A DNA stretch of 64,000 nt, taken from the NCBI GenBank assembly GCA_021806045.1, contig JAJZDI010000003.1, positions 62,001 to 126,000 of the forward strand, written 5' to 3'. Source of the DNA: Actinomycetes bacterium. GTDB lineage: Bacteria > Actinomycetota > Acidimicrobiia > Acidimicrobiales > RAAP-2. The first letter of the stretch is position 1, and the number at the start of each line of letters is the position of its first letter. The position numbers and the translations under genes are program-made. The notes below the pieces were generated by a model. It was not told the origin of the DNA. It made no database searches and worked only from the letters and a program-made list of their open reading frames with translations. This document shows positions 13,394 through 19,552 of the stretch, piece by piece.

Positions 13394-14305
13394 TCAGCCG
13401 GCGGCGGCGAACGCGACCACGACGTAGGCGGCGTGGCGGTCGAAGTCCTGGCGTCGCCTGTCGTAGACGGTGGTCGTTCTCGGGTCGGCGTGCCTGGCGG
13501 CCACTTGGACCTCTCGGAGCGGGACGCCCGCGTCGAGGGCAGCCATGATGAACGCCGCTCGCAGCATGTGCGGGTGGACCAACCCGAGCTGTGCCCGCTT
13601 GCCTATCGATCGGACCCAGCGGTGGGCGGTGCGCCGGTCGAGGCGTTGACCGTCGTGGCGCAACAGAATGGGACCGTCTCGGCGTTCCCCGACCGCGAGG
13701 TCGATGGTGCGAGCGGTGCGGGGCACCAGCGGTATGAGGGCCGGTTTGTTGCCCTTGCCGATGATCCACAACACCCGGTGCCCTCGTTCGAAAGCCATGT
13801 CTTCGATGTTGGTCTCACAAGCCTCGCTGACCCGCAGACCGTTCAGCCCGAGTAGTACGGCCAGGGAAGCGTGGGCATGGTCGAACCGCTCCGCAGTGAA
13901 GAGGAATCGGCCCAGCTCACCTCTGTCCAGTCCGCGCCGTTCCGAGGAGTGCACGGTCGGCCGGCGAACGTACTGGGCCGGGTTGGAAGAGATGCGGCCG
14001 TCGATGTGAGCAAACCGGTAGAAGCCGCACGCCGTGGACAGGCGCCGGTCGATGGTCGATGCTGCCAGCCCTCGCTCCTCCATTGAGGTCCGGTAGAGCT
14101 CGAGATGGGCTCGGGTGGCCTCGAGGACGGGCAGGCCGTGGTCGGCGGTCCACTGGAACAGGTTGCGCAAGTCGTGACGGTAGGCGTCGAGAGTCCGCCC
14201 GCTGTAGCGAGCGAGGAAAGCCACGGCAGCGAGCTCGGCCTCGTCGGGTGCGATCGACTCGGCCGTGAACGCCAAGACGTCGGTATTGGAATCGATAGTG
14301 GTCAT
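13394..14305 (-). CDS. Tyrosine recombinase / integrase
   Basis: 303 residues. N-terminal SAM-like core-binding domain (about 25-110), then the catalytic domain with all active residues visible: Arg158 (LNGLRVSEACE), Lys184 (GKGNKP), His246 and Arg249 (HPHMLRAAF), His272 (AARHADPRTT) and Tyr281 (TVYDRRR). Size and layout resemble XerC/D-like or cassette-type integrases. The ATG at 14305 follows GGGAG; the ORF open for 53 codons upstream is not needed. It sits between two toxin-antitoxin pairs, so it may mobilise or have mobilised this stretch. No att site was identified. Confidence 0.9.
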   Translation of the reverse strand: MTTIDSNTDVLAFTAESIAPDEAELAAVAFLARYSGRTLDAYRHDLRNLFQWTADHGLPVLEATRAHLELYRTSMEERGLAASTIDRRLSTACGFYRFAHIDGRISSNPAQYVRRPTVHSSERRGLDRGELGRFLFTAERFDHAHASLAVLLGLNGLRVSEACETNIEDMAFERGHRVLWIIGKGNKPALIPLVPRTARTIDLAVGERRDGPILLRHDGQRLDRRTAHRWVRSIGKRAQLGLVHPHMLRAAFIMAALDAGVPLREVQVAARHADPRTTTVYDRRRQDFDRHAAYVVVAFAAAG

Positions 14306-14390
14306 GAGTTGTCTCCCTTCGGGTGGGGAGGCCCAGCCAACTCCTATCGATCCCCGCCGACCCGCTCGACAACTGGACTCGACACCTGTC

Positions 14391-14404
14391 GTACTTTGTA
14401 GTAC
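14391..14404. promoter_or_regulatory. Inverted repeat in the int / BrnT divergent region
   Basis: GTACT-N4-AGTAC, 14391-14404, midway between the divergent integrase and toxin genes. A direct repeat CTCGACA (twice, 13 bases apart) lies next to it. Candidate operator; not matched to a known site. Confidence 0.4.
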
Positions 14405-14449
14405 ATCTGGGGGGTGGCAGGAGTGGACTGGTCCTAGCGGGCCGACTAC

Positions 14450-14695
14450 ATGCGAGAACGCCATGGGATCGAAGTGGAGTGGGCTGATGAGGCACTTGAA
14501 GACCCCGACGCTCTTCGTATCGACCCCGATCCAGCCAGCAGATCGGGACGTTCGGTGAGAACCATCGGCTACGCGACCAAGGCCGGGTACCTCGTCACGG
14601 TCATCACCGTCGAGGAGGCCGGAAGCACCTACGGCGTGAACGGCTGGAAGTCCAACGAGATCGACATCCGCCGTTACCGGGAGGAACGACCATGA
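14450..14695 (+). CDS. BrnT-like toxin, 5' end interrupted by TAG
   Basis: 81 residues from the ATG at 14450: RERHGIEVEWADEALEDP, SRSGRSVRTIGYATKAGYLVTV (in two blocks) and GVNGWKSNEIDIRRYREE. The beta-strand order and the terminal R-x-Y resemble the BrnT ribonuclease toxin family and its distant relatives. In the same frame upstream, GTG GAC TGG TCC TAG CGG GCC GAC TAC leads into the ATG. A reading V-D-W-S-stop-R-A-D-Y would extend the protein naturally. Either translation starts at 14450 with a weak ribosome site, or the toxin has a nonsense mutation at codon 5. It overlaps the antitoxin by 4 bases. Confidence 0.65.
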   Translation: MRERHGIEVEWADEALEDPDALRIDPDPASRSGRSVRTIGYATKAGYLVTVITVEEAGSTYGVNGWKSNEIDIRRYREERP

Positions 14696-15018
14696 GCGAC
14701 ACTGCGAAGATCATCGAAGCCGAGACCGAAGCGTCCGAGGACAACCGCGACGCGCCCATTCCCGAAAGCGCCAAGATCACCAGGCCGAACCGGAGCCGAT
14801 CGACCGTTTATTCGATCCGTCTGAACCCCGACGAGGTCGCCGCACTGCAAGCCATCTCCGACGCAGCCGGCGTCCCAGGATCAACCCTCGCCCGATCATG
14901 GATCGTAGAGCGAATCCAAGAAGAACAGGCCGGAGTCAGCGACGCCGAGGCCGAGCTGCGCGCCGCCCAGCGGCATCTCGCTCACTTGCAGCGCCACTTC
15001 CGCCAACAGGCGTCGTAA
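14692..15018 (+). CDS. RHH-type antitoxin (BrnA/CopG-like)
   Basis: 108 residues. An acidic N-terminal 35 residues is followed by a ribbon-helix-helix-like block, STVYSIRLNPDEVAALQAIS, DAAGVPGSTLARSWIVERIQEE, then a C-terminal amphipathic helix (AEAELRAAQRHLAHLQRHF). It starts at the ATG overlapping the toxin stop (ATGA). Toxin-first order with an RHH antitoxin is the brnT-brnA arrangement. It likely represses the shared promoter and neutralises the toxin. Confidence 0.72.
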   Translation: MSDTAKIIEAETEASEDNRDAPIPESAKITRPNRSRSTVYSIRLNPDEVAALQAISDAAGVPGSTLARSWIVERIQEEQAGVSDAEAELRAAQRHLAHLQRHFRQQAS

Positions 15019-15766: not shown

Positions 15767-16034
15767 CCAGCATCTGTAGCTTGCTTACCGACCCCGCCGT
15801 GCGCCCCAAGCCGGCGATCGGGGCGCCCTGCGGCAGCGAAACGGCTCGTCGTTGTGGGCGGGTGCAGCCGATCCCTATCCGTCGATCGGGCGCGATAGTC
15901 GGTCCGACGGAATAGCGCTGCGACGTGTTCCGGATCGGACATTCTGCGCTCGGGGATCGAGTGTTAGAAACGGTCCGGGCGATTCGCTTCGCTCGTGTCA
16001 TCCTGTTCGGGTGTCGGTGACGTTCTAAGGGTTG

Positions 16035-16550
16035 ATGGGCACAGTGGGCGACGGCGACTTTGAGGTGTTCTTCACCGAGGTGATCGGCGAAGCCATCTCA
16101 GTGACTGCCCGCGTACTGGAGGACCGAGGTTCTGCCGAGGACGCTGCGGTGGAAGCGATGGCTCGGGCTCATCTGCGCTGGCGGACCTTGTCGCTCGACC
16201 CCTTCCGCCGAGCGTGGGTTCTGAGGGTCGCCATCAACGCTGCTTTGGACATTCAGCGATCAGACCGCAGCCGCAGAGCCCGCGAGGCTCGCAGCGAGAC
16301 TGCCGCTGTGGGGGCGGACTTCGAGCAGCAAGTCCTGGACCGAATCGTGCTCGGTGGAGCTCTTGGGAAGTTACCCCGCCGTCAGCGCGAGGCGGTCGCG
16401 CTGCGCTATCTGGCCGGGTTGTCGGAAAGGGACGCCGCTGCAGCGATGGGGGTGACTGCCGGGTCGCTCAAGGTGCATCTCCGTCGGGGCTTGGCCGCCT
16501 TGGGGGGTCCGCTGACCCGCGAGATCACTGGTGGTGTTTCCGATGTCTGA
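16035..16550 (+). CDS. ECF RNA polymerase sigma factor (SigE-like)
   Basis: 171 residues. Region 2: FEVFFTEVIGEAISVTARVL, EDAAVEAMARAHLRWRTL and PFRRAWVLRVAINAALD. Region 4: LGKLPRRQREAVALRYLAGLSERDAAAAMGV, TAGSLKVHLRRGLAAL, a clear helix-turn-helix. The ATG at 16035 follows a short AAGGG. It overlaps the downstream membrane gene by 8 bases (ATGTCTGA), which places that gene's product in the position usually taken by an anti-sigma factor. Confidence 0.92.
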   Translation: MGTVGDGDFEVFFTEVIGEAISVTARVLEDRGSAEDAAVEAMARAHLRWRTLSLDPFRRAWVLRVAINAALDIQRSDRSRRAREARSETAAVGADFEQQVLDRIVLGGALGKLPRRQREAVALRYLAGLSERDAAAAMGVTAGSLKVHLRRGLAALGGPLTREITGGVSDV

Positions 16551-17451
16551 CGTTGACGTTCAGCGCCTCTTGGAAGCGACGCTACGGCGCAGCCGTCAGT
16601 TACGAACCCGACGACAGTTATACGCCGCTGGCATAGCTGTTGCCGTGGCCGCCGCCGTCGCCATCCCGGCCGCAGTTCTCTCAGGAGGATCGGCAAGGCA
16701 CGCCGTCATCATCTCGCCTGGTCCGTCTACCTCGAGCACCTCGACAGCACCGGCATCCGTGCTCCCGCCGGGACCCACAGGCACTGTCACAGTCCCAGAC
16801 GTAGCCGGCCAGACCTACCTACCGACGGCACAGATGGCCCTGGCCAACGTCGGACTGATGGCCCAGTATCAGCTTGAGCACAGCACGGCCGTAACGGCCG
16901 GAACGGTGGTGACTCAGGCACCGGCCGCGGGTTCAACGGTTCCGTCCGGCAGCACAGTGACCCTCATCGTCTCAACAGGACCGACGACTATTCCCGGAGC
17001 CCAGCCCTGCCAGGCCTCGGCCCTCAAGGTGCAGCCCGGCCAGCTCGTGTCCGAGGCGAGCGGACAGAACACCATCGACTGGTCACTCACCAACCTCGGC
17101 AACCCGTGCGTCCTCAACGGGTATCCCGCAGTCACGGCCCTCGATCAGCAGGGCCGAGTGCTGAACTTCACCTACTCCCATTCCGGTGACCAGATGACTA
17201 CCGCAGTCCCTCCACAACCGGTATACCTGCCCACGGGAAGCTCAGCCTGGGTAAGGCTGAACAAGTACCGCTGCGACGTCACCGTCCAGAACACAACAAC
17301 TTCCTTCAAGTTCGCCCTGCCATCCGGCGGCGGCTCGCTCGATCTCTCAGATTTGACGCGCATCTTCGACTACTGCGCGGAACCGCCGAGCTTGACGATC
17401 GCCGTCTCCCCCTTTGAGCCAGTTGAAATGCTGCTGTCCGCCAACCCGTAA
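16543..17451 (+). CDS. Membrane protein with PASTA and DUF4232 domains
   Basis: 302 residues. A short basic cytoplasmic segment (about 1-26) is followed by one membrane helix (YAAGIAVAVAAAVAIPAAVL, about 27-48), a Ser/Thr/Pro linker, one PASTA repeat (about 82-150, VTVPDVAGQTYLPTAQMALA ... GSTVTLIVS), and a DUF4232-like domain with four Cys (ACQ-type start at about 158 to the C-terminus). PASTA domains bind muropeptides or beta-lactams in Ser/Thr kinases. Its overlap with the sigma gene suggests an extracytoplasmic sensor acting on the sigma factor through the short N-terminus. That role is inferred. Confidence 0.8.
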   Translation: MSDVDVQRLLEATLRRSRQLRTRRQLYAAGIAVAVAAAVAIPAAVLSGGSARHAVIISPGPSTSSTSTAPASVLPPGPTGTVTVPDVAGQTYLPTAQMALANVGLMAQYQLEHSTAVTAGTVVTQAPAAGSTVPSGSTVTLIVSTGPTTIPGAQPCQASALKVQPGQLVSEASGQNTIDWSLTNLGNPCVLNGYPAVTALDQQGRVLNFTYSHSGDQMTTAVPPQPVYLPTGSSAWVRLNKYRCDVTVQNTTTSFKFALPSGGGSLDLSDLTRIFDYCAEPPSLTIAVSPFEPVEMLLSANP

Positions 17452-17633
17452 GAACGACCGTCACCACCACCTCCGAACCCAAAGCGTTGGGAGGCTACGT
17501 CCACGACATCGATCCCACTGACCGACAAGCCCACGACCTCAGCCCATTCAACATCGAGGCCATAAACCGCCAGAACACGCACCCATATTCGGTTAGTCCT
17601 TCGACGACCCGCCGTCGCGTGCCGAGCAGAATC

Positions 17634-17648
17634 GGCGCTCGGAGCGCC
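17634..17648. repeat. Inverted repeat GGCGCT-CGG-AGCGCC, copy 1
   Basis: Perfect 6-bp arms with CGG between, about 65 bases upstream of the first SepF-like gene. An identical copy with matching flanks lies upstream of the second gene at 18791-18805, so it belongs to the duplicated unit. Operator or terminator, not distinguished. Confidence 0.7.
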
Positions 17649-17700
17649 TCCTCTTCTTGACCCCCCGGGCGACGCAGGCGCGGATCGACCACGGAGGGTC

Positions 17701-17706
17701 TACGCT
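17701..17706 (+). promoter_or_regulatory. Leaderless -10 element of SepF-like gene 1
   Basis: TACGCT, 6 bases before the GTG at 17713, inside GGTCTACGCTC, which is kept word for word upstream of the second copy. Confidence 0.6.
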
Positions 17707-17712
17707 CGCGGC

Positions 17713-18288
17713 GTGGACGGTGAACCTCTTCCGGCGGCTGGAGATGCGCCGCAGGAGCGGATGGCCGTGATACGGACGTTCGGCGGCACAAAGCCGCTAA
17801 TCGCGATGCTCAACGCTGGTCATCCTGTCTTGGCCGTCCTGAGAACCTCCGAGGAAGAGCGGCGTCGGGTCGTGGATTTTCTGAGTGGGTGGGCGGTCGG
17901 TGCTGGCGGCGAGCTGGACAAGATCGGGCCGAACACGATCTTGGCTCGTCCGCCCGGCAGCCGAGCAGTCCACTTGGGCCGATCATCGCTCGTCTCGGCG
18001 GTGCAAGAGGTCTTTGCCGGCGACGATCCGCACCCACTGAGCCGCGAAGACGAGGAACGTCTGCTTCCGCTGGCTGTCGCTGGCTCCGCAGGCGCTCGCC
18101 GCAGGCTCATTGACGCCTACTCCGATTTCGCCACCGTCTTCGCCCTACGGATCCGCCCCCAGACCGTCTCGGAGGGGGCCGCCGTTCGGGCGGCACAGCA
18201 GGAGTTGGAGCGCTTGGCCAGCTTCCCCTCCCACGGTCCAATGCTGGCCTCGTTGGCGGAGGGGATCAGCAAGATCCTCCTGGGCTAA
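17713..18288 (+). CDS. SepF-domain protein with sigma-like C-terminus, copy 1
   Basis: 191 residues. Residues 17-82 match the SepF fold: VIRTFGGTKPLIAMLNAGHP, VLAVLRTSEEERRRVVDFLS, GGELDKIGPNTILARPPG. SepF in mycobacteria has the same pattern (hydrophobic strand, RLVDFAAG, G-x-x-DKV, FLL-x-P). Residues 108-190 are helical: LSREDEERLLPLAVAGSAGARRRLIDAYSDF resembles sigma-70 region 1.2-2.1, and RLASFPSHGPMLASLAEGI resembles regions 2.2-2.3. No region 4 or FtsZ-binding tail was recognised. The GTG start is 6 bases after TACGCT. The fusion is inferred by eye. Confidence 0.7.
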   Translation: MDGEPLPAAGDAPQERMAVIRTFGGTKPLIAMLNAGHPVLAVLRTSEEERRRVVDFLSGWAVGAGGELDKIGPNTILARPPGSRAVHLGRSSLVSAVQEVFAGDDPHPLSREDEERLLPLAVAGSAGARRRLIDAYSDFATVFALRIRPQTVSEGAAVRAAQQELERLASFPSHGPMLASLAEGISKILLG

Positions 18289-18385
18289 CCGGCCAAACGC
18301 ATAAAAATCCATCCTGCGCCTGTCCTTGTCGGGACTGCGCTCCCACGACATGCCCGGGAATCGGCGCTCTGCGCTCCGGGACGCG

Positions 18386-18715
18386 CTACCACCTGGCCCC
18401 GCACCAGCAGATGTGGTCGGAGTCATGGCCAGCGGGGGACGCACACAGATGGAAGCCACCCTCGTGCGTTGGCATCGCCTGCGGACCCGTGTCGGCTGAG
18501 TCGAGGCCGACCATGCACTTCCCCGCGGTGCGTCGCTGAGCGACTACTGGGGGATCGGCTGGCTCCTCCCAGGATGACCCAGCTCGGTGCCAGTCTCTGC
18601 CGCACTCAAGGCATCGACCGACGCCCCCCGGCGCGCCGGCCTTTAGATGCTCCTGCCAGTCGCCCAACTCTGGGGCCGCGACCTCAACGGCACCTCCGCA
18701 AGATGGACAGGGCAC
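18386..18715 (-). CDS. Putative zinc-ribbon protein, 109 residues
   Basis: Lies between the two SepF-like genes on the opposite strand. Begins at a GTG with PCPSCGGAVEVAAPE, then GVGRCLECGRDWHRAGSSWEE, and ends HLCASPAGHDSDHICWCGARW. CPSC plus CLEC form a likely four-cysteine zinc ribbon, and a second C/H cluster ends the protein. No family is recognised. The cysteine spacing argues against a chance ORF, but there is no clear ribosome site. Confidence 0.55.
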   Translation of the reverse strand: MPCPSCGGAVEVAAPELGDWQEHLKAGAPGGVGRCLECGRDWHRAGSSWEEPADPPVVAQRRTAGKCMVGLDSADTGPQAMPTHEGGFHLCASPAGHDSDHICWCGARW

Positions 18716-18790
18716 ACCTCATTCTGGTCGGCCGCGCCAGAACATGAGCGCATCCGATTATGGCGGACGACCGAGCCGGCGCTCGTAGTC

Positions 18791-18805
18791 GGCGCTCGGA
18801 GCGCC
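18791..18805. repeat. Inverted repeat GGCGCT-CGG-AGCGCC, copy 2
   Basis: Same 15 bases as at 17634-17648, with the shared flank TCGGCGCTCGGAGCGCCTC, about 65 bases before the second SepF-like GTG. Confidence 0.7.
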
Positions 18806-18858
18806 TCGTCCTCTCGTCCTGGCCGGGCGCCGTCGGCGCAGAACGAGCGACGAAGGTC

Positions 18859-18864
18859 TACGCT
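18859..18864 (+). promoter_or_regulatory. Leaderless -10 element of SepF-like gene 2
   Basis: TACGCT, 6 bases before the GTG at 18871; same sequence and spacing as the first copy. Confidence 0.6.
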
Positions 18865-18870
18865 CATAGC

Positions 18871-19446
18871 GTGGTCGGTGAGCCTCTCCCAGCGGCAGGG
18901 GATGCGGCGCAGGAGCGGATGGCGGTCATACGAACCTTCGGCGGCACCAAGCCGCTCATTGCGATGCTCAACGCCGGCCATCCGGTCTTGGCCGTGCTCA
19001 GAACCTCCGACGAAGAACGCCGCCGGGTACTGGACTTTCTGGGCGGGTGGGCGCTCGGAGCCGGCGGCGAGTTGGACAAGATCGGGCCGAACACGATCCT
19101 GGCTCGTCCGCCGGGGTGCGGAGCGGTCCATCTGAGCCGATTGTCCTTCGTCTCGGCAGTGGAGGAAGTCTTTGCCAGCGACGATCCGCACCCGCTGACC
19201 CGGGAAGAGGAGGAACGTCTGCTTCCCCTGGCTCTTGTTGGCTCAGCAGGCGCTCGCCGCAGGCTTATTGACGCCTACAGCGAGTTCGCCACCGTCTTCG
19301 CACTACGGATTCGCCCACAGTCCGTTTCGGAGGGGACCGCCATCCGGGCGGCACAACAGGAGCTGGAACGCTTGGTCAGCTTCCCTTCGCACGGTCCGCT
19401 GCTGGCCTCCCTGGCGCAGGGAATCAGCAAGATCCTCTTGGGCTAA
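18871..19446 (+). CDS. SepF-domain protein with sigma-like C-terminus, copy 2
   Basis: 191 residues, exactly the length of the first copy and without indels. By eye about two dozen residues differ (roughly 87% identity), mostly conservative, while many third codon positions differ. That pattern means both copies have been kept under protein-level selection since an old duplication. Differences cluster in residues 83-122, between the SepF core and the sigma-like helices (for example SRAVHLGRSSL versus CGAVHLSRLSF). The longer in-frame upstream ORF is not needed, since the conserved TACGCT and GTG define the start. Same uncertainty of function as copy 1. Confidence 0.7.
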   Translation: MVGEPLPAAGDAAQERMAVIRTFGGTKPLIAMLNAGHPVLAVLRTSDEERRRVLDFLGGWALGAGGELDKIGPNTILARPPGCGAVHLSRLSFVSAVEEVFASDDPHPLTREEEERLLPLALVGSAGARRRLIDAYSEFATVFALRIRPQSVSEGTAIRAAQQELERLVSFPSHGPLLASLAQGISKILLG

Positions 19447-19552
19447 CTGGCTCGCACATAAGACCATCTCGCGCTCGGGACGCCAGTGGAGCCGTGCCTC
19501 GGCGAGGGCGCGTGATTCGGCGCTCGGCCTCCTGATCGGGCAATCTGGCGGA

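Follow-up and report, generated by a model that had tools for sequence, protein, structure and literature searches.

Why should a bacterial protein appear to join the fold of SepF to that of sigma region 2? SepF is treated as a dedicated anchor for FtsZ, and sigma region 2 as a domain that binds RNA polymerase and melts DNA. In a window of 64,000 nucleotides from an Actinomycetes bacterium, the whole stretch of DNA analysed here, two related genes encode a protein that very probably consists of a SepF fold, a short helix and a sigma-2 fold, an architecture that depends for its second half on a structural model. This two-domain reading (SepF with sigma regions 1.2-2) had been put forward in a first-pass annotation of the sequence, and Pfam, AlphaFold2 and Foldseek bear it out. 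The combination of these two known folds is new; no published SepF-sigma fusion was found in the open-access literature searched, in agreement with the annotation's remark that it knew of none with this make-up.

The gene pair and its relatives

The two genes lie on the forward strand at 17713..18288 (copy 1, encoding P0001) and 18871..19446 (copy 2, encoding P0002). Each has a GTG start and encodes 191 residues, and each is recognised by its open reading frame, by a match to the SepF family PF04472 and by its dN/dS. The two proteins are 87% identical, as the annotation had counted, with 24 differences in 191 residues; the genes differ at 84 of 576 bases (85% identical). Third, first and second codon positions account for 55, 23 and 6 of the base differences, respectively, and 54 of the codon differences are silent as against 24 replacements, which agrees with the many silent differences noted earlier. 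Between the copies dN/dS is 0.126 for the whole gene, the SepF half having 0.053 and the C-terminal half 0.204. Comparison with the homologue in a second genome, G061, gives 0.17 for the whole gene and 0.12 for the C-terminal half. Selection thus acts on the protein sequence of both halves, and both genes of the window are under purifying selection. An artefact or a pseudogene is ruled out by the 55/23/6 codon-position pattern together with the dN/dS of 0.13.

The description of the genes as a tandem pair holds only in part: there are two copies, but other DNA separates them. The duplication comprises 17632-18293 and 18789-19451 (84% identical over 663 columns), so that some 80 bases upstream of each gene were duplicated too, and the DNA of about 0.5 kb between the copies is unrelated. 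It contains an open reading frame on the opposite strand (18386-18715), whose Cys-rich product of 109 aa looks like a zinc ribbon and has no match in Pfam or NCBIfam. The pair lies on contig C31, and no further copy occurs within the 3.1 Mb genome.

How widespread is this architecture? The search covered about 1,180 distinct genomes from the phylum, sampled most densely within the family, order and class to which this genome belongs; its queries were either the C-terminal half or a still young profile, and more divergent members may therefore have been missed. Two other genomes in this class encode both domains together. The homologue in G061, from the same family, is full-length (P0003; 191 aa, 58% identity), although the assignment of its contig is less certain because the genome is reported to be 9% contaminated. 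That in G703, from the same class but outside the order, is also full-length (P0004; 46%). Two further genomes, G331 and G1173, retain C-terminal remnants only. The other weak C-terminal matches, most of which were inspected by alignment or frame, look like frames of unrelated genes. The family is thus uncommon and scattered, which is what one expects of an accessory gene. Phages, plasmids and viral contigs yielded no relative, and a search of PHROGs was empty; a phage or plasmid origin is rejected on these grounds.

The G1173 remnant lies on a contig of the public MAG Actinomycetes bacterium LSA5.bin83 (locus L004; locus L099 is the same contig). At L004 600-950 it follows, by about 130 bp, a sequence resembling the 3' end of a tmRNA, as if at an integration site; the Rfam tmRNA match there has an E of 0.27, far below the cut-off. 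The G331 remnant (L057 1615-1773) starts where a MoaD-like gene ends, directly behind its stop codon. The idea that an integration site lies within the gene, suggested by the start of both remnants near the same residue, was dropped because there are only two independent cases.

Directly upstream of the genes is a putative -10 element, TACGCT, at 17701..17706 for copy 1 and 18859..18864 for copy 2, on the forward strand. A TANNNT sequence is located exactly six bases before the start codon in all four full-length genes, as TACGCT in the window pair and G061 and as TAGTCT in G703, where the spacing is counted from an ATG one codon upstream of the P0004 start used otherwise. Within the window only 5 of 1861 ATG/GTG triplets (0.27%) have TANNNT at this spacing, and two of the five are these genes. 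Mycobacteria, many of whose transcripts are leaderless, use TANNNT as their dominant -10 element, with its centre 7-12 bp before the transcription start (PMC3898074). The conserved spacing supports the chosen start codons and leaderless expression, and the genes are probably expressed from a leaderless promoter. Some 65-80 bp upstream of both copies is an identical palindrome, GGCGCTCGGAGCGCC, at 17634..17648 and 18791..18805 on the forward strand. This may be an operator, or the terminator of the preceding gene; it was not seen upstream of the G061 copy.

A SepF fold altered at its FtsZ contacts

The SepF-fold domain comprises residues 16-82, encoded at 17758..17958 in copy 1 and 18916..19116 in copy 2 on the forward strand. 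PF04472 matches all four members, with E from 5e-7 to 2.5e-5, and two of the four pass its 27-bit cut-off in hmmscan. For P0001 the match spans residues 21-82 (E 5.3e-7, 30.2 bits); for P0002 the same residues score just below the cut-off (E 7.6e-6, 26.5 bits), and 27.9 bits in a genome-wide search for SepF. The homologues P0003 and P0004 match with E of 2e-6 and 2.5e-5, and phmmer matched the SepF sequences of the PDB at about 1e-3. The predicted structure of this half matches the SepF folds 3zih (Foldseek E 2.3e-5), 6sat, 3zig, 3zie and 3p04. The earlier assignment of residues 17-82 to the SepF pattern is therefore sound.

The family shares with SepF the β-α-β core, the residues R52, D55 and G59 of helix α2, and G66 and P80; of these, R52, D55, G59 and G66 are kept in an alignment with 29 canonical SepFs, taken from the genome itself and from related ones. 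The invariance of R52, D55 and G59 suggests that this half serves as a dimerisation module. Other positions differ markedly. In Corynebacterium glutamicum SepF, K125 and F131 are residues whose mutation abolishes FtsZ binding (PMC7118173). The F131-equivalent position, assigned through alignment to the C. glutamicum structure 6sat, is I, I, C and M in P0001-P0004, compared with F or Y in 28 of the 29 canonical proteins, and the K125-equivalent position is K, K, R and E. At position 42 the family has V, where 28 of the 29 canonical SepFs have N. A signature GWAxGxGGxL...GPNTxxARP and the additional C-terminal domain also set the family apart.

The N-terminal membrane helix and long disordered linker of SepF are likewise absent. 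The fold core begins at residue 16, and the 15 residues before it (DGEPLPAAGDAPQER-like) contain no amphipathic helix as judged by eye; the start codon, and hence this short N-terminus, is supported by the conservation of the TANNNT element. Nor is the pair beside ftsZ. The canonical sepF of this genome is on a different contig, C39, 1.5 kb after an open reading frame with the FtsZ tubulin motif, and the FtsZ tail in this genome is DDEFDVPSFLR, a normal kind of FtsZ C-terminal peptide. Because the amphipathic helix is absent and the FtsZ-contact Phe is lost, the SepF half does not appear to be the usual FtsZ anchor, and the anchoring role implied by the annotation is unsupported. Judged by its residues, the N-terminal half is best described as a derived SepF fold and not as an FtsZ anchor of the known kind.

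A sigma-region-2-like fold

The C-terminal domain comprises residues 103-191, encoded on the forward strand at 18019..18285 in copy 1 and 19177..19443 in copy 2, the latter being included in the alignment behind the structural model. AlphaFold2, run without templates on an alignment of the window and homologue sequences (n=6, including two fragments), modelled residues 103-191 alone with a pLDDT of 89 and a pTM of 0.79, as four helices at positions 9-20, 24-45, 52-68 and 75-88 of the segment; when the entire protein was modelled, this half was predicted at low confidence. In a Foldseek comparison with the PDB the best 50 matches listed are all sigma factors, and no other four-helix family occurs among them. 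The top matches have TM scores of up to 0.82 and a probability of 1.00, with E of 0.03 at best (0.03-1); the region 1.2-2 fragment of RpoS, 5h6x, superimposes with a TM score of 0.80 and an rmsd of 1.8 over 85 columns. In the viral library, phage sigma factors lead where matches are named. The modest E-values perhaps reflect the shortness of the domain, and the evidential weight of the Foldseek result lies in the unanimity of the matches, not in their E-values.

Sequence comparison gives a fainter signal in the same direction. When the six-sequence C-terminal alignment was compared by hhalign with the housekeeping-type sigma factors of the genome it scored 23.5 (P 0.002), against a mean of 11.0 (sd 2.0, maximum 18.8) for 150 column shuffles and 10.9 for the reversed alignment; with ECF sigma factors alone the score was not above the shuffles. 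The alignment is ungapped over residues 115-159, with G124, A128 and the loop before region 2.2 in register. Against three group 1/2-type sigma factors this ungapped 45-residue alignment gave z of 1.7-4.4; for two of the three, all members score above 3. Library searches gave less: Pfam has no match for the C-terminal half in any of the four members, NCBIfam SigI matches it with an E of 0.11 in P0001 only, and a sequence-only search for sigma in Pfam and the PDB found nothing.

The family thus resembles sigma-70 region 1.2-2 (PF04542 and relatives) in its four-helix fold, helix order and loop lengths, and differs in lacking β′ contact residues, the aromatics of -10 melting, and regions 3 and 4. 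In region 2.2 of Escherichia coli sigma70 the β′ clamp contacts are D403, Q406 and E407. The corresponding residues in P0001-P0004 are A/T/R/E, R/R/R/Q and A/A/I/V. Only in P0004, the member furthest from the rest, is there still an acid at the D403 position and Gln at that of Q406, which fits an origin from sigma-2 followed by loss. The fourth helix sits where region 2.3 would be, and its aromatics are missing (0, 0, 0 and 1 F/W/Y in P0001-P0004, compared with 5-6 in the sigma factors of the genome). Region 4, which recognises the -35 element, is absent, the protein ending at residue 191 directly after the fourth helix. The model indicates that the C-terminal half is the fold of sigma region 1.2-2.2 with a shortened 2.3 helix. 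The annotated match of residues 108-190 to the order and spacing of sigma regions 1.2-2.3 is accordingly upheld by structure and weakly by sequence, with the exception of the 2.3 aromatics, whereas the suggestion that the protein could contact RNA polymerase is unsupported for P0001 and P0002, which have A or T, R and A at the three clamp positions.

Possible roles

What function is left to such a protein? Our best guess is the suggestion of the first-pass annotation that it mimics sigma. We tentatively propose a two-domain protein that acts by protein binding, as a mimic of sigma region 2 dimerised through SepF, and would give this whole statement, mechanism included, a little under an even chance. 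The SepF half, having lost membrane anchor and usual FtsZ pocket, would dimerise the protein. The sigma half would be a degenerate mimic that neither melts promoters nor holds core polymerase in the standard way, and would bind the usual partner of sigma-2 domains. An anti-sigma factor is the most likely such partner, by partner switching like that of PhyR, and the clamp of the polymerase a less likely one. As a result, an alternative sigma factor would probably be changed in its activity.

Among described systems, the closest in logic to a sigma half without its core-binding and DNA-melting residues is PhyR, whose degenerate sigma-like domain captures an anti-sigma factor instead of acting as sigma (PMC8103513; PMC4598750). 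Like this alphaproteobacterial sigma mimic, the family combines an unrelated domain with a sigma-like one in which the promoter and core contacts are degenerate. PhyR differs in that it has a receiver domain and both a sigma-2 and a sigma-4 part, whereas here sigma-2 alone is joined to SepF; neither Pfam nor the fold search found a receiver domain or a sigma-4-like part within the 191 residues. Against the mimic, no family library gives a significant sequence match for the C-terminal half, the Foldseek E is at best 0.03, and the ECF sigma factors alone score no higher than shuffles. A bolder form, which would physically link the division ring to transcription, seems to us improbable: a SepF-fold dimer or polymer would present the sigma-2 domains so that the state of the septum, through SepF, tunes sigma or anti-sigma activity, or so that the septum retains transcription machinery.

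The neighbouring genes offer one candidate partner. An ECF sigma factor of SigE type (16032..16550, forward strand; PF08281 E 9e-14, TIGR02983 E 8e-27, below cut-off) overlaps a gene at 16531..17451 on the same strand, whose product contains PASTA and DUF4232 domains and, at its N-terminal end, a hydrophobic stretch that looks like a membrane span. From gene order the latter is possibly the anti-sigma factor of the ECF protein, of an unusual kind for such a candidate. The two genes end 261 bp upstream of copy 1, on the same strand. This neighbourhood is a weak pointer to a partner, because the pair was not seen at the G061 locus, where the gene is near a contig end, or at that of G703. A few kb upstream of the gene pair, at 13394-14464 on the reverse strand, is a gene for an XerC/XerD-like tyrosine recombinase (TIGR02225 E 1e-33, below cut-off), and the region 13.4-19.8 kb could be a mobile island. 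It also contains, at 14450-15018 on the forward strand, overlapping genes for a BrnT-like toxin (PF04365 E 2e-4, below cut-off) and a RelB-antitoxin-like protein, likely a toxin-antitoxin pair.

Might the protein act in division instead? Its SepF half could pair with the true SepF of the genome and poison or tune the Z-ring, as happens with a SepF unable to bind FtsZ, with the sigma-like half as a spacer or regulatory module. That half lacks the membrane helix and the F131 aromatic yet keeps R52, D55 and G59; a canonical SepF is encoded near ftsZ elsewhere in the genome; and in C. glutamicum the K125E/F131A form of SepF can still interact with the endogenous protein, with multiple rings as the result (PMC7118173). 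We nevertheless consider this role unlikely, as it leaves unexplained a sigma-2 fold that is under purifying selection and fused in three genomes. A little less probable again is direct binding of RNA polymerase, with the sigma-2 half on the β′ clamp helices, as an inhibitor or as part of a split sigma factor resembling RsoA/SigO. The sigma-2 fold is the core-binding part of sigma (PMC4598750), Bacillus subtilis RsoA is a known partner protein with sigma-2 only (PMC8103513), and P0004 keeps the acid and Gln mentioned above. P0001-P0003, however, have A, T or R and R at those two positions, E407 is lost in all four members, and the region 2.3 aromatics are missing. RsoA is similarly a small protein with a sigma-2 part and no sigma-4, but it works in transcription with SigO, whereas this family is fused to a SepF domain and has no known sigma-4 partner gene.

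More sceptically, the C-terminal half might be an unrelated four-helix bundle that has converged on sigma-2, the protein then being a SepF paralogue with a helical tail. The empty family searches, the Foldseek E of 0.03-1 and a model built on six sequences, two of them fragments, speak for convergence. We think it a poor prospect, given that 50 of the 50 PDB matches listed are sigma factors (probability 1.00, TM about 0.8 at the top) and that hhalign independently yields the same register as the fold match.

The sigma-2 mimic therefore remains the reading we prefer. The family forms a class of SepF paralogues whose members profile annotation would label as plain 'cell division protein SepF'. 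If our reading is true, here is a protein in which the contacts of both folds have worn away, and each fold would be reusable as a scaffold. It would also offer a concrete case in which to test whether division and transcription communicate in Actinobacteria.
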